Shown piece after piece: positions 25,758 through 47,226 of a DNA stretch of 64,000 nt. The DNA comes from Gemmatimonadaceae bacterium. Its GTDB lineage: Bacteria > Gemmatimonadota > Gemmatimonadetes > Gemmatimonadales > Gemmatimonadaceae. The notes below the pieces were generated by a model. The model made no database searches. It worked only from the letters and a program-made list of their open reading frames with translations, and was not told the origin of the DNA. Both the position numbers and the translations under genes were made by a program. Location of the stretch: the NCBI GenBank assembly GCA_016742275.1, contig JACVCD010000011.1:124001-188000 (forward strand), read 5' to 3'. Numbering within the stretch: position 1 is the stretch's first letter; each line of letters starts with the position of its first letter.

Positions 25758-25830
25758 TCGCTACTCGGTAGTCGCTACTCGGTAGTCGCTACTCGGTAGT
25801 CGCTACTCGGTAGTCGCTACTCGGTAGTCG

Positions 25831-25840
<10 letters not shown>
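25751..25840. repeat. 14 bp tandem array in a convergent junction
   Basis: Six exact copies of TCGGTAGTCGCTAC plus six bases of a seventh fill 25751-25840. Each unit is two related heptamers (TCGGTAG, TCGCTAC) and can fold as GTAG-TCG-CTAC. The first copy contains the P1 peptidase stop codon; the sixth contains the metX-hom stop codon on the other strand. Confidence 0.95.
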
Positions 25841-38388: not shown

Positions 38389-39747
38389 ATGGTTCAAGTC
38401 CGCTATGCCGCCCGACTGGGCACGTTTTCCGGTACGATGCTGGTGGTCGGTGGCATCATTGGCGCCGGAATCTTTCTCTCCCCGGCCGTGGTGGCGCAAC
38501 GGGTTGGGACCGCCTCTCTCACACTCGGCGCCTGGGGACTCGGCGCGGTCGTGGCCATCATCGGTGGCTTCGTCTATGCCGAACTGGGCGCCCGCCTGCC
38601 GCGGGCCGGAGGCACCTATGTGTATCTCCGGGAGGCCTATGGGCCGCTTCCGGCCTTTCTTTACGGGTGGGCGCTGTTCCTGATCATGGCGACGGGCGCC
38701 ATAGCCGCCGTCGCCATGACCGGGGCCAACTACTTCGCCGAATTGCTCGGCTGGTCGGCGGCGTCTGCCCGGCCGCTGGCCATTGGGCTCATAGTCGTGC
38801 TCACGTTGCTGAATGTGCTGGGAGTCCAGGTCGGTGCGACCGCCGGCAACATTCTTACGCTCCTCAAGCTGACGGCCATCGCGGCATTGGTTCTTGCCGC
38901 GCTGCTGCTCGATCCGCAGGGCGCACCAACCACGATTGAGACAGCTGTGGCCGCACCGCTCACGGTGCCTACGGGGGCTGCAGGTATTGCCGTGGCGATG
39001 GGCGCAGCATTGGTACCTGTGTTGTTCTCCTTCGGCGGATGGCAGCAAACGAATGCGGTGGCCGAGGAGTTGGTGGATCCGCAGCGCACATTGCCAAAGG
39101 CATTGGTGTTTGGCGTACTGATCGTGGCGGCAACCTATCTGTTGGTGAACGTTGCCTATCTACGTGCATTGGGTGTTGAAGGTCTGGCTGCGAGTCGCGC
39201 GCCGGCGGCAGAGACCATGCAGGTGTTTCTTGGTCCTATCGGCCGCACATTGATCACGGCGGGTATCGTCACATCGACTGTGGGCTTCCTGACCATGGTC
39301 ATTCTCATGTCGGCGCGCGTGTATCAGGCCATGGCGGCGGACGGAATGTTCTTCCGCGGTATGGCGTCCTTGCATCCGCGTACCCAAACGCCGGTGTTGG
39401 CACTGGTGGCACAGGGCGCAGTAGCACTCCTGCTGCTACTTACCGGTACATACGGACAGCTGCTCGACTACGTCGTGTTTGCGGATTGGATCTTCTTCGG
39501 CTCCACCGCTGCGACGTTGTTCGTGTTTCGTGCGCGCAAGATCGGTGAGACGAGCGATGGATTCCGTTCACCGCTCCATCCGTGGGGCACCATTCTGTTT
39601 GTGGCAGCCGCGCTGTACGTGGTGGCAGGATCGATCTGGTCCAATCCCGGCAACGCCGCACGAGGCGCCGCGTTGTTGATTGCCGGTCTTCCCGTATACG
39701 CCTACTGGCGCAGCAAGGCGCGAAGTGAAGTGGGAGGCGCATCGTGA
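38389..39747 (+). CDS. APC superfamily amino acid permease
   Basis: The ATG at 38389 gives 452 residues; upstream in-frame sequence is inside the promoter region and not typical. About 12 transmembrane helices are visible. The N-terminal motif GGIIGAGIFLSPAVVAQRVG (the APC GIG-like substrate-binding loop) and PRAGGTYVYLREAYGP are hallmarks of amino acid permeases. The specific substrate cannot be told. It shares a four-base overlap with the MOSC gene that follows, although the two proteins have no obvious link. Confidence 0.9.
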   Translation: MVQVRYAARLGTFSGTMLVVGGIIGAGIFLSPAVVAQRVGTASLTLGAWGLGAVVAIIGGFVYAELGARLPRAGGTYVYLREAYGPLPAFLYGWALFLIMATGAIAAVAMTGANYFAELLGWSAASARPLAIGLIVVLTLLNVLGVQVGATAGNILTLLKLTAIAALVLAALLLDPQGAPTTIETAVAAPLTVPTGAAGIAVAMGAALVPVLFSFGGWQQTNAVAEELVDPQRTLPKALVFGVLIVAATYLLVNVAYLRALGVEGLAASRAPAAETMQVFLGPIGRTLITAGIVTSTVGFLTMVILMSARVYQAMAADGMFFRGMASLHPRTQTPVLALVAQGAVALLLLLTGTYGQLLDYVVFADWIFFGSTAATLFVFRARKIGETSDGFRSPLHPWGTILFVAAALYVVAGSIWSNPGNAARGAALLIAGLPVYAYWRSKARSEVGGAS

Positions 39748-40604
39748 GTCTGCCAGCACCACTGACGCCGAGCGTCGGCGGTCTCACGATCTATCCGCTC
39801 AAGTCAGCCGCTGGTATCCCGGTCGACGAACTCACACTCGACGATCGCGGTGCGATCGGTGACCGACGCTGGCTCTTGGTGGACCCGGCAGGCGATGCGA
39901 TCACCGCGCGTGAAACCCACGCTCTGCTGCATGTACAGCCACGCTTTGCCAGCGCCAATCGTGATGGATCGCTGATGCTCGATGCGCCCAATCATCCCAC
40001 GTGCGTGGTGCCGGTACCCGATGCGAGCGCGGAAGAACGCACGGTGGTGATCTGGAAGGACGCCGTGTCCGCGCTTGATGCCGGCGATGATGTGGCCGAG
40101 TGGTGCAGTGATGCGATCGGCCGCGCTTGCCGACTGGTGCGGCTCGATGACAGCGCCGCGCGACCGCTCAAGCACAAGTACGCTGGTCCACTTGCTGCCG
40201 ACGGGCGACGGGTCGCGTTCAGCGATGGAGCACCACTCATGCTGCTCGGCCATGGGAGTATCGCGGCTCTCAATGCACGCCTCGCATTGCGGGGGCATAC
40301 CGAGTCCATGGACTATCGGCGCTTTCGCGCCAATGTCTGGCTGGATGCCACCGGTCCGCATGAAGAAGACACATGGCGACGTGTGCGTATCGGTTCGGTG
40401 GAGCTGGGCATGGGTTCACTGTGTGTGCGGTGCGTGCTCACGACGGTGCATCCGGACACGCTGGCGCGTGGTGTTGAGCCACTACGCAGCTTTGGCGAGT
40501 ATCGCCGCGTGGCCGATGGCGTGGCGTTTGGTGTGAACGCCACGCATGCGGCACCGGGCTCGATGCGCGTGGGGGATACCGTGCACGTAGTTGAGGCCCG
40601 GTGA
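39744..40604 (+). CDS. MOSC domain protein (mARC-like molybdenum cofactor family)
   Basis: The 286-residue protein starts at GTG, overlapping the permease stop (GTGA). The N-terminal beta barrel (GGLTIYPLKSAAGIPVDELTL, DRRWLLVDPAG) precedes the MOSC domain, with the cofactor Cys region LGMGSLCVRCVLTTVHPDT near residue 230. Family members bind molybdenum cofactor or sulfur and reduce N-hydroxylated substrates (mARC). Here the role is inferred. The stop lies inside the first hairpin of the repeated GAGGCCCG family. Confidence 0.88.
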   Translation: MSLPAPLTPSVGGLTIYPLKSAAGIPVDELTLDDRGAIGDRRWLLVDPAGDAITARETHALLHVQPRFASANRDGSLMLDAPNHPTCVVPVPDASAEERTVVIWKDAVSALDAGDDVAEWCSDAIGRACRLVRLDDSAARPLKHKYAGPLAADGRRVAFSDGAPLMLLGHGSIAALNARLALRGHTESMDYRRFRANVWLDATGPHEEDTWRRVRIGSVELGMGSLCVRCVLTTVHPDTLARGVEPLRSFGEYRRVADGVAFGVNATHAAPGSMRVGDTVHVVEAR

Positions 40605-40625
40605 TCACGTAGATCAACGGGCCTC
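40593..40625. terminator. GAGGCCCG hairpin, copy 1
   Basis: GAGGCCCG (40593-40600) pairs with CGGGCCTC (40618-40625), extended after one mismatch by TGATC/GATCA around a 5-base loop. It overlaps the MOSC stop codon and lies 62 bases beyond the trypsin-like gene's stop on the other strand. Two further copies occur at 43187 and 46526. Confidence 0.8.
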
Positions 40626-40687
40626 TAAGCTCATTACAGCTGCGCGCAATCGTGTTCTCTGGTGCGCCTAGCTACTTGCAAAATATG

Positions 40688-42394
40688 TTAGTAGTGCGCG
40701 AAGCGAACCGAATCACCCAGGAGAGAGAACGAGCCGGTCATGGGGTTCTTCGACAACACGCGATACTTCGTGTAGGTATAGGCCGGGGTGCCGGAAGGCA
40801 CAACTGAGTGAAAGATCGATCTAGTGTCGGTATAGCTAGTACCGACGACTCTCACCTTCCACGTCCCGACATTCACGACATTGCAGCCCCAGTACGGATC
40901 ACACTGCTGTTGCCAGTCCTCGCCCTGAAGTTCGTACTCGGAAGCACCGGATGCTGATGACCAGCAAACGAATGCCGTTCCCGGTATGCTGCTCACGGAC
41001 CCCGCAATTGTGCTCGGTGGAAGCAATGTAGCCGGTCTGACTACCTGGAATGTCCCGCCGAGATTTGCCACAATGCGATCGTACGGACTCCAGAGGTGTG
41101 CCGAGCCGGGAGCAGTGCCATTATTACCAACAGTGATTCCGATCAACCGGACATTGTTCGAGTCGAGGCGTACAAAAACGCTCCCTCCGCTGTCGCCATC
41201 TTGAGCGCTCGCAGTACCGGTGTCCCCGCATCTGGTCACATACTGATCTGGCCATGCGTAGCCAAGGTGATGGTCAATGCAAGTCTGCACAGTGATGCCG
41301 GTTACCCATCCAGTAGTGTGGCCAATCCTGTGGTAGGTCGTTCCCATCGGGAGAGAACTGGTTGCGACGTCCTTTACGACAAAGTAGGGGCTCGCGGCAT
41401 CAAGATTGATACTTCCTGGGGCGGTGCGCGCAATCAGACCTACGTCGATTGACCCAGATGTAATCTTGAATAGCGCCGCGTCCGCCATGCGGCACCAGTT
41501 TCCTGCGCAGTAGGTCTTGTGCGGATCTACGGTCGAGTAACCGAAATAGGTTCTCGCTCCTAATGGGCCTTGTCTCAGAGCGGTGCTGTCTGGTGCGCCC
41601 CAGATCTGGGTGCAATGAGTATTCGTTACGATTGCAGGGTACGATGCACCGCCACCGGCGGGAGTATAGGTCGTAGTAAAGCCGAGACTACATTCACCGT
41701 CAGCCCCGTTATTGCCGACCATTGGATCCGTCGCAGAAACATGAATGTTTATTCCTCCTACGAGTGTTGTAAATACGCCGTCCAAATTCGATGGCAACAG
41801 CATTGACGCGCGCCGCCCAAATGAACTCGACCCAGCGGCAGGACGCATAGGCTCCTCCGGCTTGAACTCAATCGCTTGGCGATCCAACCCGTGACGCACA
41901 ATCGCTTCTTCCAACTGCGCGGAGGCCTGTGCGGCCATGGACTTGTCGATGCCAATCACGACACGGTTTCGAGCCTCGTTCAAATCAAGTGAAGTGACAC
42001 CGCGCACGGATCCAAAGAGATTTTCGAAGACGGCCTCGCGCTGCTTCGCGAGATATCCGTAGGAGTAGTCGGCTGTCACAATCCGAACACCCCCACGGGC
42101 GTAACTCCTCTGCTCCATAGATACAGCCGTGGAATAGGCTGAACGTGCGGCCTCGAACTCATCCCGGTCCCTTACGCGAATGACCATGCTGCCAGTTTCG
42201 TCGAGATAGTATCCGGCACTCGAAGGGACAAGTCGCGCGAGTGCGGCGAAACCAACTTCGCCAGTTGGAATCTTTTCAGGGACCGCATCAGAACGGTCCA
42301 CAGACACTGATTGTAGATTCGGCACCGATGTGATATCCGAAGGCTCCAGTGTTCGGTCCGCGCAAGCGCCAAAGCCAGTCAATCCCACAAGCAT
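40688..42394 (-). CDS. Trypsin-fold (S1) serine protease lipoprotein with prodomain
   Basis: The 568-residue protein has a lipobox-like start (LTGFGAC, Cys11), a region of about 180 residues like the pro-domains of alpha-lytic protease (AVFENLFGSVRGVTSLDLNEA, VVIGIDKSMAAQASAQLEEAI), then the protease: His260 (IVTNTHC), Asp305 (MADAALFKI) and Ser402 (GDSGGSVF). TNTH replaces the usual TAGH. Several Cys pairs suggest disulfides. Residues about 450-568 may be a fibronectin-like domain. The ATG at 42394 gives an unusually short signal; an in-frame rare start upstream would give a better one. GC content is lower than in neighbours. Confidence 0.82.
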   Translation of the reverse strand: MLVGLTGFGACADRTLEPSDITSVPNLQSVSVDRSDAVPEKIPTGEVGFAALARLVPSSAGYYLDETGSMVIRVRDRDEFEAARSAYSTAVSMEQRSYARGGVRIVTADYSYGYLAKQREAVFENLFGSVRGVTSLDLNEARNRVVIGIDKSMAAQASAQLEEAIVRHGLDRQAIEFKPEEPMRPAAGSSSFGRRASMLLPSNLDGVFTTLVGGINIHVSATDPMVGNNGADGECSLGFTTTYTPAGGGASYPAIVTNTHCTQIWGAPDSTALRQGPLGARTYFGYSTVDPHKTYCAGNWCRMADAALFKITSGSIDVGLIARTAPGSINLDAASPYFVVKDVATSSLPMGTTYHRIGHTTGWVTGITVQTCIDHHLGYAWPDQYVTRCGDTGTASAQDGDSGGSVFVRLDSNNVRLIGITVGNNGTAPGSAHLWSPYDRIVANLGGTFQVVRPATLLPPSTIAGSVSSIPGTAFVCWSSASGASEYELQGEDWQQQCDPYWGCNVVNVGTWKVRVVGTSYTDTRSIFHSVVPSGTPAYTYTKYRVLSKNPMTGSFSLLGDSVRFAHY

Positions 42395-42522
42395 AGTGAT
42401 CGCACGTGCCTTGAACAGGAACGTGCGATTGCGAACAGTACGAGAAATATAAGGCGGGAAATGAGGTCAGAAATGTGCTTTCGATATTGAACACAAGCTG
42501 CAGTTTGCGGGACGGCCCAAAG

Positions 42523-42921
42523 TCATTGTGTGCTGGCCGACATCGCGATCGTTACCTCCACTGGCTTGATGTAGCCGCATTGACGTTCACGAGTCACCAC
42601 AATGTCGTTCCGTGTGGTTGAGTTGAAGCCTGGTGCTTCAACCCGCACATCATAAGTACCCGCGCGTCGATAGGCGCCGAGGTATAGCCCTGGCTGCGAA
42701 GGATCCGTGACCAAGATTTCGGAGTAGGAGCCATCGACGATGCTGACTGTGGGCGTTTGCGCGAGAGGCTGTTGCGTTCTGGTGTCGAGCACTCGGATTC
42801 GCAAGCCATGTGTGGAAGGAGCCGCACAATCTCCACCACAGGCTCCCAACCAGATAGTAAGTATTGGAACTAACAGAACTCGAAGAGAGTGCGCGCCCGC
42901 ACGTAATACTGGCTTAAACAT
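42523..42921 (-). CDS. Small lipoprotein with a carboxypeptidase-regulatory-like domain
   Basis: The 132-residue product has a lipoprotein signal (LLVPILTIWLGAC, Cys about residue 26). The rest is a beta-sandwich-like domain: GLRIRVLDTRTQQPLAQTPTVSIVD, GLYLGAYRRAGTYDVRVEAPGF and a C-terminal strand, similar to carboxypeptidase regulatory or CnaB-like domains, which often bind other proteins on the cell surface. I chose the ATG at 42921, which puts the signal at the start. It precedes the trypsin-like protease gene by 128 bases on the same strand and may work with it. Confidence 0.75.
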   Translation of the reverse strand: MFKPVLRAGAHSLRVLLVPILTIWLGACGGDCAAPSTHGLRIRVLDTRTQQPLAQTPTVSIVDGSYSEILVTDPSQPGLYLGAYRRAGTYDVRVEAPGFNSTTRNDIVVTRERQCGYIKPVEVTIAMSASTQ

Positions 42922-43245
42922 GTTCCGAAACCTCACAATGAGATGTTCATGCCCGTCCGGATTCCCGAACTGCACACTTTCATTCAGAGAGTATCAATCT
43001 GCACGCAAGACGCGCAATAGAAGAGTGAGCTTCAACTTGCGATTCGAAGAAAATATTCGGGACGAAGCGTCTAGCATGCTGTTCGAAAAAGTGACGTCTG
43101 TCACTCGTTTCGTATCCATCGCCATCTACACCCATACACTCGACAGTCCATGTCCAGCTTTGATAAGTGAGGCGGCGCAGAGGGTTGAGGCCCGCTGATA
43201 TATTCTTGGATCAACGGGCCTCGAAGATTCGTCAACGGCGGATGA
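42922..43245. other. Gene-free stretch between lipoprotein and pilin operons
   Basis: These 324 bases have no supported coding frame and are richer in A+T than the surroundings. They should contain the promoter of the lipoprotein gene. The only clear element is hairpin copy 2. Confidence 0.5.
43187..43222. terminator. GAGGCCCG hairpin, copy 2
   Basis: GAGGCCCG pairs with CGGGCCTC, followed inward by TGAT/ATCA across a C-A mismatch. It lies 23 bases beyond the stop of the PilX-like gene. The loop differs from copies 1 and 3 while both arms are the same. Confidence 0.8.
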
Positions 43246-44436
43246 TCAGTACAACTGCGCCCAACTGCGTTCCTTGGTGCGCGTCAGGATGGCTGAACCG
43301 CGCAGTGCAGATTCCACGGCACACTTGGACCACTGGAACAGCGAGTTACCGGTAACGGAGTTGTCGTCGTTCACATTCGCGTTGCGGGACATGATGCTGC
43401 CCCACATGTCGAATGTACCATTGCCCTTCACGATGTCATCCCGGGCGATGATGAGACCGAACCACTGGAAATTGCCGTTGAGACGCACATCGCCATTCAC
43501 GAGCAGAATGCCCTGGCCACGACCATGGCTGAGTTGCGCTTCGCCATCGATGTAGATGATAGGAAAGAAGTCTTCGCACCCCTTGATCCAGCCGCTTCCG
43601 GAGCGGAGTGGTTCACCCCAATTCTCCGTAGAGCCAATGGAGCAGGTACTTGCCGTTCCAACGGGCGCCGGCTTGTAACCGCCTCCAGGAAGACGAATGT
43701 CGGCATTGGCGACCAGTGAGTTCCATGACTCCGTGCCGTATCGAACGTACGTGTTGGAGTCACCGGCTGCGGGATCCTGATTGATGCCGTTGATGACATT
43801 CTGCGGTTTCTGGATGCTGGCCGTCTTGCCCGGTGCATATACAATGGCAAACGTGTCCCGACCAGCAATCGACGCGCACTGTGTCCAGCCGGCGGGATCA
43901 GTGTTGCGGCCTGTGACATCGGCCGCGCCCTTCACATCGATGTTGCCGGCGGTAACGATGGCGCCACCCGGATTGATGGACGGATAGGCGATGCGCACGA
44001 CCATGTGTGTCTGTCGCTGCGCTTCGAGTTGTTTATTGCCGATGCTGGCGCGACCCACCGACCGCACCCAGAATGTGGTTTCCGTCAGACGCTGGATATA
44101 CACCTTGGCCGTATCACCCTGCGCGACGAACACATTGGATGAGTCGATGGCTCCGATGGCCATGCCACGTGGCGGCGGCAGATTGCGCCCACGATCCCAC
44201 GCCGAGATTTCAGAGTTGAGGCCGAACTCCGCGACGGCAAAGGCGCGCTGCTCCACGAGGGAATTCCGACCGGCGCGGAAGTCTTGCATCGATCCCATGA
44301 TCGCACCGGCCGACAAGATGGCGAGTACTACGACCACGATGAGTGTGATCAACAACGCCATGCCGCGACGCGCGCGCTGTTCGGTTGCTGGCGATTCCGA
44401 TGGGATCGCGTCTACGGCTGCGGTTTCGTGATTCAT
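43246..44436 (-). CDS. PilX-like minor pilus assembly protein
   Basis: The 396-residue protein has a class III-type N-terminus: RARRGMALLITLIVVVVLAILSAG, a basic stretch, Gly, then a hydrophobic helix without the Glu5 of normal pilins, as in PilX/GspK-like proteins. The long C-terminal part has repetitive strand segments (AIVTAGNIDVKGAADVTG, ILLVNGDVRLNGNFQWFGLII), suggesting a beta-helical or bactofilin-like domain. It probably sits at the tip or base of type IV pili. It overlaps the upstream PilW-like gene (ATGA). Confidence 0.82.
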   Translation of the reverse strand: MNHETAAVDAIPSESPATEQRARRGMALLITLIVVVVLAILSAGAIMGSMQDFRAGRNSLVEQRAFAVAEFGLNSEISAWDRGRNLPPPRGMAIGAIDSSNVFVAQGDTAKVYIQRLTETTFWVRSVGRASIGNKQLEAQRQTHMVVRIAYPSINPGGAIVTAGNIDVKGAADVTGRNTDPAGWTQCASIAGRDTFAIVYAPGKTASIQKPQNVINGINQDPAAGDSNTYVRYGTESWNSLVANADIRLPGGGYKPAPVGTASTCSIGSTENWGEPLRSGSGWIKGCEDFFPIIYIDGEAQLSHGRGQGILLVNGDVRLNGNFQWFGLIIARDDIVKGNGTFDMWGSIMSRNANVNDDNSVTGNSLFQWSKCAVESALRGSAILTRTKERSWAQLY

Positions 44437-45356
44437 TGACGGTTCCTCAGGGCGATGCGGAAGGCGAGTGAATCGGTGTTCTGTGTGCTCGATGTGCCGA
44501 ACGTGCCGGAACTGTTGGCTCCCTTGGCACGAAGCAGCAGATCGATGCGGGCAACACGACGGCTGTCGGCCACATTGGTGACGGCGGCTCCAAGACTGTC
44601 GAAATACGCGAAGCGAATGCCGCCTCCGCCGCTCACCGGTGGTGCATACGGTCCGCTGACTGGAGTCGAGGCACCCCATGCACCACCCATGTATTCCGAT
44701 CGCGTGAGGTAGTAGTCACCACTCCCCTGTGCTTCGAGTTGATATCGTGCACTGCGGGTGAAGCGAATGGCGGAGCCGACCTTTACCGAATCGGGCAGGG
44801 CAGGGGTCACGGTGATACGCCAGCGTGGTTTGCTCGCATCCAGTGCGGCGTCGAGGTAGGGACTTGGTGTGCAGCCACTCGACGTCGCAACCGCCGTCAC
44901 CCGCAGCGGTGTCCACACATCGTCTTCGGCACCTCGCGACAGACTGTCGTTGAAGGCCCACATCGTATCACCGACTGCAGGATCGGCATACCATGCGGAG
45001 AGTGTGTTGCGCGCCATGTTGGTGGGCGGCAGGTCGACTACGGTGTTGCTGACACGGGCGCAAATGATGGACGCGCCGAGCACACTGCGGAACGACACGG
45101 ATGACGTGCCCATAGCTGTGAGGTCGCCGCCCGAGGAGGATACGGATCGCAGGTCGGCCGGCACGAGGCTCATGGCCGAACGCAGCTCGCGTCGCATGCC
45201 CATTTGCTCGTTGGTGCGCTGATAGAATCGCTGCTGTCCCATCATGAGGCGCGACACCACCACGCCAATCAGCGAAACGATGGCTAGTGTGACGAGCAGT
45301 TCAGCGATGGTCATGCCGCGCCGTGCGCGGCTCTGCCAGGGCGTCAGTCGCGGCAT
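44433..45356 (-). CDS. PilW-like minor pilin
   Basis: The 307-residue protein has the prepilin motif RRGMTIAELLVTLAIV; PilD would cleave after Gly14 and methylate the Met that follows, and the Glu5 of the mature chain is present. A long variable C-terminal domain follows. It belongs with PilW/PilV/FimT-like minor pilins that prime pilus assembly. It overlaps its downstream neighbour by four bases and the PilV-like gene by 13. Confidence 0.85.
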   Translation of the reverse strand: MPRLTPWQSRARRGMTIAELLVTLAIVSLIGVVVSRLMMGQQRFYQRTNEQMGMRRELRSAMSLVPADLRSVSSSGGDLTAMGTSSVSFRSVLGASIICARVSNTVVDLPPTNMARNTLSAWYADPAVGDTMWAFNDSLSRGAEDDVWTPLRVTAVATSSGCTPSPYLDAALDASKPRWRITVTPALPDSVKVGSAIRFTRSARYQLEAQGSGDYYLTRSEYMGGAWGASTPVSGPYAPPVSGGGGIRFAYFDSLGAAVTNVADSRRVARIDLLLRAKGANSSGTFGTSSTQNTDSLAFRIALRNRQ

Positions 45357-45727
45357 GGGATCACCATCTGGTAGCGCAGTTGTTGTGTGCGGCGCGGGAC
45401 GATGACCTTCACATCAATGGTCTTGATGTTGCGGCCGTCGGTCACAGACCAGCTCTCTTTCACACCACGCAGCGTGGTGCTGCCGGTCTTCGCGCCGGCA
45501 TCGAGAGATGCACACGAAAGACTGGTGAGCGAATCGAGCCGTGCCTGCGCGATGCCGGCGGCCACAGTCTGTGTAACGCCACCGGTCATCTGCCTGGCCA
45601 CGGCACCGGACGTGCTGAGCAGGCCGCCAACGCCAACCACGAGCACCGTCACGGCGATGAGGATTTCCACCAGTGTGATGCCGCGCCGTGCGCGTGGGCC
45701 GCGATGTGTGCGAGTGTGAGGACGCAT
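45344..45727 (-). CDS. PilV-like minor pilin
   Basis: From the ATG at 45727 the protein has 127 residues (an ATG at 45745 adds six). The prepilin sequence RARRGITLVEILIAVTVLVVG has the cleaved Gly and Glu5. The rest includes a Cys near residue 80 and one four from the end that could form a disulfide. It is the second gene of the pilin operon and overlaps the PilW-like start. Confidence 0.85.
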   Translation of the reverse strand: MRPHTRTHRGPRARRGITLVEILIAVTVLVVGVGGLLSTSGAVARQMTGGVTQTVAAGIAQARLDSLTSLSCASLDAGAKTGSTTLRGVKESWSVTDGRNIKTIDVKVIVPRRTQQLRYQMVIPCRD

Positions 45728-45732
45728 GCGGG

Positions 45733-46236
45733 TCACAGAGTGCACCCTTTTTTGAGGATGAGACCAGCAGGACTGATACAGAGCGTGTCTGCCTTGCTGC
45801 CGACGGTGAGTCGATACTTCAGCATTGCCGCGGGCGTCGGCGTCATGAGGCCGCGTGCGTTGTAAGTGATCGTGGTCGGCGCGCTGGAAAGCGGTGTCAG
45901 GCTCACTCCAACAGATTCGTAGAGATCAACTGGGCCGAATACCTGCGCCGACGTCCCGGCGAGACCGCTCAGCACACTCACTCGCGCCTGATTGCCCGTA
46001 AGCGTGAGTGTGGAGGTCTTTCCCTTCTGGAGCGCTGCCGCGCGTGCTGCCGCAAACGCCGCGGTCAATTGCTGACGTCCTGCGCGCAGTGCCGAACTGC
46101 TCTTGATGACCGTCATGCGCGGAACCACCATCGTGAACACCACGGCGAGTATCGCCACGACGAGCATGAGCTCGAGCATGGTGAAGCCGGCGCGGCTGTT
46201 TCGTCGATGTGGTGTGGATCGCGAAGCGAATGACAT
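45733..46236 (-). CDS. GspH/FimT-like minor pilin
   Basis: The 167-residue protein starts at the ATG 46236; a TTG at 46263 would add nine residues. The prepilin motif SRAGFTMLELMLVVAILAVV has Glu5. The body resembles GspH/FimT (SALRAGRQQLTAAFAAARAAALQ), and two Cys near the C-terminus may form a disulfide loop. It is the first gene of the four-gene operon; major pilin, PilB, PilC and PilD are not in this window. Confidence 0.87.
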   Translation of the reverse strand: MSFASRSTPHRRNSRAGFTMLELMLVVAILAVVFTMVVPRMTVIKSSSALRAGRQQLTAAFAAARAAALQKGKTSTLTLTGNQARVSVLSGLAGTSAQVFGPVDLYESVGVSLTPLSSAPTTITYNARGLMTPTPAAMLKYRLTVGSKADTLCISPAGLILKKGCTL

Positions 46237-46587
46237 GGTGTGTGAAGTGAGATGCGAGTTCAAAGAACTGCCGACCGCGGACTCCAGGCAGAGCGAGTAC
46301 GGTCCTCACTGTCACGACGCACTACGCGCGACATGTCAACGTTATTTGTGCTTCATGCGGGCTTGTTGTGACAGCATTCGCGTGTGCTGGAACGCGGGTG
46401 TCACATCATTGCGTTTTCACTTGCGAAACACTTCGTTTGATGATGGGACTGTCATGTCTGTGCGACTCGCTGATGATGCCACGTGCGCTGTGTGCTCACC
46501 AAGGTGAGATACCCTGGATGTGATCGAGGCCCGCTGATCGCGTTGCATCGCAGATCAACGGGCCTCGGTTGCATGCACCTGCTCCGT
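46237..46587. other. Gene-free stretch upstream of the pilin operon
   Basis: These 351 bases hold the pilin operon leader. TTGACA on the minus strand (46334-46339) is a possible -35 box, but no good -10 box lies at the expected spacing. Hairpin copy 3 lies at the other end. No coding frame is convincing. Confidence 0.45.
46526..46566. terminator. GAGGCCCG hairpin, copy 3
   Basis: GAGGCCCG pairs with CGGGCCTC and then TGATC with GATCA across one mismatch, with an inner GCG/CGC pairing. It lies 21 bases beyond the stop of the lipoprotein gene at 46588. Confidence 0.8.
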
Positions 46588-47043
46588 TCAGAACTTCACG
46601 TCGAAAGTGCCATTGGTGACGACTTTGTTGCCTGTCGCGCCTGTACTGGCCGAAGGAATGGCAGTGAAGGAAAATGTTCCAGCGGCGCGGTTGGCGGTGA
46701 GGGTCGTGATGTTGACGCTGCCCGACCCACCGACCAGGCTGGTGACCCACCCTCTCGTGCCTTCGGTGTAGGTGACCGTTGCGGGAGCGCCGCCACCAAG
46801 TTGGACCGTGCCTGTTCCCGTGACGTTGGGCAATGCGAAGTTGATCTGGCGCGATGTGCTGGTTACCGCCCCGAAGCTGAGCAAATTGCCGCTTCGCGTG
46901 GCCTGAACTGCGAGATCGGCGGAGAAGGCCGCTCCGTCGATCATTGCAGTCACGCTACCGGATCCGTTCGGTCCCGTGGGGGAGTCCTTGTCACTACCAC
47001 ATGCCATCACCAACACCAGTGCCACGAGTGCCAACCGCTTCAT
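46588..47043 (-). CDS. Hypothetical secreted lipoprotein
   Basis: The 151-residue product from the ATG at 47043 (GGAG box upstream) has a lipoprotein signal MKRLALVALVLVMAC. The mature part opens with a Ser/Gly/Pro linker (GSDKDSPTGPNGSG) and then a beta-rich domain with VTAMIDGAAFSAD, the start seen in DUF6252-type lipoproteins. No catalytic residue is apparent. It stands between tRNA-Asn and the pilin operon. A role at the outer membrane is inference. Confidence 0.78.
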   Translation of the reverse strand: MKRLALVALVLVMACGSDKDSPTGPNGSGSVTAMIDGAAFSADLAVQATRSGNLLSFGAVTSTSRQINFALPNVTGTGTVQLGGGAPATVTYTEGTRGWVTSLVGGSGSVNITTLTANRAAGTFSFTAIPSASTGATGNKVVTNGTFDVKF

Positions 47044-47100
47044 GAACGCTCCGGGAGGGAATTGAGGAAGGATCCCCAATGTAAATCCCGTCGCACGCAA

Positions 47101-47129
47101 AACGGGCGACCTTTGACAGGCCGCCCGTT
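47101..47129 (-). terminator. Terminator after tRNA-Asn
   Basis: AACGGGCG (47101-47108) pairs with CGCCCGTT (47122-47129); on the minus strand it is followed by TTGCG and lies 25 bases beyond the tRNA. Confidence 0.65.
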
Positions 47130-47153: not shown

Positions 47154-47226
47154 CTCCCGGGGAGGGACTCGAACCCCCGACAGGGTGATTAACAGTCACC
47201 TGCTCTACCACCTGAGCTACCCGGGA
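47154..47226 (-). tRNA. tRNA-Asn (anticodon GTT)
   Basis: A 73-base cloverleaf on the minus strand: acceptor TCCCGGG/CCCGGGA, D arm with GCTCAGGTGGTAGAGC, anticodon loop CTGTTAA, and T arm GGGGG TTCGAGT CCCTC. CCA is not encoded. Confidence 0.97.

Follow-up and report, generated by a model that had tools for sequence, protein, structure and literature searches.

Three hairpins that accompany a pilin operon in a Gemmatimonas-type bacterium are probably copies of one ordinary, local gene-end hairpin of the kind that carries no U-tract: the end of pilX appears to have been duplicated, hairpin included, around an inserted pair of genes, and a third copy stands behind a small lipoprotein gene (lip3). 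The trio is most likely a product of ordinary local genome history and not a new element. It lies in the window, the whole stretch of 64,000 nucleotides analysed here, which is part of contig C21 of a 4.57-Mb genome. The hairpins (hairpin 1, 40593-40625; hairpin 2, 43187-43222; hairpin 3, 46526-46566) share one orientation, and each is found past the stop codon of a minus-strand gene: 62 nt beyond that of a trypsin-like protease gene, 23 nt beyond that of pilX and 21 nt beyond that of lip3, respectively.

On the minus strand, the form common to the three is GAGGCCCGTTGATC, a loop, and (G/T)ATCA(G/C)CGGGCCTC. The 14-nt 5' arm GAGGCCCGTTGATC is identical in all copies and the 3' arm is nearly so, with differences at 2 of 27 arm sites overall; the loops, of 5 to 13 nt, differ and cannot be aligned. 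At position 9, a U pairs with G in hairpins 2 and 3, whereas in hairpin 1 it is mismatched with C. Minus-strand folding is strong for each (z of -3.6 to -4.6), and the pattern GAGGCCCGN{3,25}CGGGCCTC matches these three sites and no others in the window, with 0.00 matches expected from shuffled sequence. The coordinates, the shared arms with differing loops, the spacing of 21-62 bases from minus-strand stops and the absence of the family elsewhere in the window were all described in the initial annotation and hold true; its extent for hairpin 3 needs amendment, the stem being longer (approximately 46515-46577). Because the arms of hairpin 3 differ at one site from those of hairpin 1 and at one from those of hairpin 2, it belongs, judging by these arms, to the same family.

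Comparison with same-genus genomes indicates which of the genes here are old. The relatives' order is uvrA, tRNA-Asn, gspH, pilV, pilW and pilX, followed by a MOSC gene on the opposite strand; the place of the gspH-pilV-pilW-pilX operon (43246-46263, minus strand) is conserved, and the pilX orthologues of ten same-genus genomes are 74-85% identical. Present here and missing from the compared relatives are two additions. The first, situated between hairpins 1 and 2 in the gap between pilX and the MOSC gene (39744-40604, plus strand), is a 2.5-kb insert of only two genes: the trypsin-like protease (40688-42394, minus strand; PF00089 just above cut-off) and a small lipoprotein with a carboxypeptidase-regulatory-like domain (42523-42975, minus strand; PF13620 below gathering score). 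The second, between hairpin 3 and a tRNA gene (47154-47226, minus strand), is lip3 (46588-47043, minus strand), which has no Pfam match and is absent between tRNA-Asn and gspH in the relatives. The tRNA gene has its own separate terminator-like hairpin at approximately 47100-47129, upstream of lip3. Among 100 relatives there is no close homologue of the protease or of lip3 (best matches 36% and 45%, respectively), and comparison of the protease with plasmids gave one weak match, from Deinococcus (26.6%). Since the protease pair and lip3 are missing from the relatives and lack close homologues, two of the three hairpins, 1 and 3, are taken from these comparisons to end gene units gained in this lineage, and hairpin 2 to end the old operon. 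No integrase, transposase or other mobility gene was found in the protease/lipoprotein insert among its open reading frames or by Pfam search. A second pilin cluster occurs elsewhere in the genome (C15:190000-209500), with gspH, pilV, pilW and a pilX that is 52% identical to that of the window, followed by further genes of pseudopilin type.

In the two closest relatives (L074 and L075), the short gap between pilX and the MOSC gene is filled by a single hairpin of other sequence, which overlaps the MOSC end; the corresponding site here consists of hairpin 1 on the MOSC side, where it overlaps the stop codon of that convergent gene, and hairpin 2 next to pilX. From the gene orders compared, genes seem to enter and leave this gap. 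Several other same-genus genomes (L076, L077, L078, L081 and L082) have an alpha/beta-hydrolase-like gene, so identified by reading of the sequence, between pilX and MOSC.

The relationship between hairpins 1 and 2 is revealed by a copied but decayed pilX 3' end (40633-40669, minus strand) located between the protease stop codon and hairpin 1. This remnant matches the end of pilX at 29 of 37 nucleotides without a gap and with the stop codon in register (RTREHDCAQL* against RTKERSWAQLY*), and it is also detected by BLAST. None of 2000 shuffled sequences matched as well, and as good a match was found in 3 of 6000 random 60-mers of the contig, some of which may overlap the locus itself. The segment that is absent from relatives is thus flanked by direct repeats, each made up of a pilX 3' end and a hairpin. 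Because this in-register remnant precedes hairpin 1, the sequence evidence demonstrably identifies hairpins 1 and 2 as a direct repeat of the pilX tail and its putative terminator around the protease/lipoprotein insert. Divergence of the arms (2/27) does not differ significantly from that of the tail remnant (8/37; p 0.17). The flanks downstream of the three hairpins share no homology with one another.

These observations can be accommodated by a scheme in which an ancestral hairpin occupied the gap where pilX and MOSC converge; entry of the protease/lipoprotein pair behind pilX would have duplicated the pilX 3' end and hairpin, leaving one copy on each side. Hairpin 2 would have stayed behind intact pilX, and hairpin 1 would have come to stand behind the protease with the decaying pilX tail in front of it, at the place of the single pilX/MOSC hairpin of relatives. 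The third copy, behind lip3 and across the operon, may have the same origin as the others. Against the scheme speak the loops, which are too different to align beside such similar arms, and the absence of any other pilin remnant from both inserts. Candidate recombination routes include a single crossover, site-specific insertion, and a tandem pilX copy that was later replaced. Duplicated 3' gene ends are known to flank insertions such as integrative elements and single-crossover integrations, which resemble this locus in the direct repeats of pilX 3' end and terminator around the insert; unlike them, the 2.5-kb insert here has no mobility gene, and the copies of the repeat have diverged.

A variant of this explanation, differing in route alone, is that the pilin operon or pilX by itself was once tandem and that the outer copies were replaced by the protease and lip3 genes, leaving their terminators behind. 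Such a history would cover all three hairpins and the pilX tail with one scheme, and tandem pilX-like genes do exist in one relative (G021:C3). It is nevertheless unlikely, as no further pilin remnant was found in either insert and hairpin 3 lacks a clear pilX tail. Its flank has no significant likeness to the window's own pilX tail. The best resemblance, of 12-17 nt (GAACGGAGCAGGT-GCA), is to the end of pilX in a close relative, and between 59 and 446 of 6000 random stretches, according to the tail chosen, are just as similar.

The three are most likely, by position and predicted folding, 3'-end or terminator hairpins. Each would end or protect the transcript of the gene that it follows on the minus strand: hairpin 1 that of the protease unit, hairpin 2 that of pilX and hence the pilin operon, and hairpin 3 that of lip3. 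Hairpin 1 may also serve the MOSC gene from the other side. In six of ten relatives, pilX is followed within 90 nt by a strong hairpin (z below -3.4) that differs in sequence and has no T-run; conservation extends to position and pairing but not to sequence, which fits a terminator or 3'-end protector. Of the features of intrinsic terminators, a GC-rich hairpin within approximately 80 nt of the stop codon is present in all three cases, and the classic U-tract after the stem is absent. The initial annotation had correctly remarked that no T-run follows any of the hairpins, but treated as notable what is the rule here: by a crude, ORF-based gene set for contig C21, at least 5 T in the next 8 nt were found at 6 of 50 gene ends with a strong hairpin within 150 nt and were missing at the other 44, and matches to terminators of the T-run type near the locus are at chance level (10 against 10.1 expected). 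According to a passage in PMC8355165, many gene ends supported by RNA-seq do not need a poly-U trail, and U-less hairpins are common there. Absence of a T-run is therefore no anomaly, in view of the 44 of 50 gene ends in C21 and, as far as that passage goes, of the published gene ends. The predicted terminators resemble U-less intrinsic terminators in having a GC-rich stem soon after the stop codon, the sole difference being that they form a local family with identical arms. Among the three interpretations first offered for the hairpins, a terminator family of the lineage is the best supported as regards termination; as regards lineage it fails, this being a local trio that probably arose by duplication, and the hairpins behind pilX in relatives having other sequences. 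As gene-end hairpins in this genome mostly lack a T-run, terminator finders based on T-runs would miss them.

The copy number of the arms bears on the remaining interpretations. The exact 14-nt arm GAGGCCCGTTGATC occurs at three sites in the genome, namely hairpins 1-3, all within 6 kb, and near-matches to it are as numerous genome-wide as for a reversed-pattern control. The outer arm pattern has four matches in the whole genome, the fourth of which (C17:34516) is a different hairpin without TTGATC. The complete hairpin was not found in the contigs of other genomes, a search that may leave out the window's own genome, or in the viral contigs searched, and no Rfam family besides the tRNA was detected at the locus. 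With no other genomic copy of the full arm and no full hairpin in those contigs, the family is not a dispersed repeat, an uptake sequence or the mark of a regulon. DNA uptake sequences, pairs of which can act as terminators, number hundreds of copies per genome, against three here. The genome-wide search for the arm that the initial annotation proposed accordingly returned three exact copies and not hundreds at random genes, and the suggestion of a REP-like element finds no support; REP and BIME elements are likewise intergenic palindromes, but here there are three copies only.

In another reading, an RNA- or DNA-binding regulator would recognize the arms by their sequence and so coordinate three surface-related units. 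Near-identity of the arms alongside differing loops would suit such recognition, as would the plausible export of all the products concerned (protease, pilins and lipoprotein), to judge from their sequences and Pfam matches. This reading is quite improbable, however: there are exactly three copies, half-sites do not exceed the reversed-pattern control, the relatives' hairpins at the same place have other sequences, and common descent accounts for the identity of hairpins 1 and 2. Shared origin accounts for the common sequence of two of the hairpins at least. The idea that a binding site joins three units gained no support, with no further copies of the arm and with genes that an insertion next to the pre-existing pilin operon would have brought into proximity. 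The locus thus illustrates how duplication of a gene end during gene gain can give rise to a small local hairpin family that resembles a common regulatory signal.

The genome seems to carry an integron, its integrase (C4:120898-121827) scoring 383.6 bits against TIGR02249 (cut-off 265) and being followed by two 74-nt attC-like repeats (L165:17686-17759 and L165:19927-20000) that are 78% alike and start with GCCTAAC or GCATAAC. Presence of this integrase, together with extra genes that each end in the same hairpin and with loop variation like that of attC sites, could suggest that the hairpins are recombination sites and that gene-plus-hairpin cassettes were captured, as in integrons, by a recombinase that recognizes the arms. 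Integron attC sites are similar to the hairpins in their location at gene ends, conserved arms and variable loops, but their RYYYAAC and GTTRRRY boxes are absent on inspection from all three hairpins, and the hairpin pattern has neither an unpaired central spacer nor extrahelical bases. The attC-like sites beside the resident integrase (repeat GCCTAACAGAACGCTGCTGCC...) are longer and unrelated to the hairpins in sequence. An attC pattern scan of the contig found none; because it also overlooked the attC-like repeats next to that integrase, the inspection is decisive here. There is no other copy of the hairpins in the genome and no recombinase in the insert, and the pilX tail at hairpin 1 points to duplicated host DNA. 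Identity of the hairpins with integron attC sites is rejected, given the missing boxes and the unrelated resident repeats, and capture in the manner of an integron is very unlikely. Instead, the arms might be what an unknown recombination process recognizes, one that repeatedly captured genes plus hairpin around the pilin operon. They would then be gene-cassette sites of a new kind, but this reading has little in its favour and is scarcely credible.

Whether duplication of gene-end hairpins into local families is general in this genome can be judged from approximately 202 kb of contig C21, in which no nearby pair of hairpins sharing at least 12 arm bases forms a second such family; the present family is therefore a single case and not a habit of the genome. 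The general form GAxGCCC...GGGCxTC recurs among the ordinary gene-end hairpins of relatives. The outer 8 nt thus reflect a preference widespread in the genus, and the shared inner part is the special feature of the trio. Covariance-model matches in relatives proved to be different U-less terminators, located where genes converge; of these, the best (in G020), within approximately 6 kb of a distant homologue of lip3 and between unrelated genes, was treated as coincidence. Elsewhere in C21, gene ends have very long hairpins of ACTCAAAACTCAAAG-like words (C21:87895-87964 and C21:121501-121569), and two such hairpins share parts of their arms. At another gene end, within the window (25777-25839), there are about five tandem ACTCGGTAGTCGCT units.
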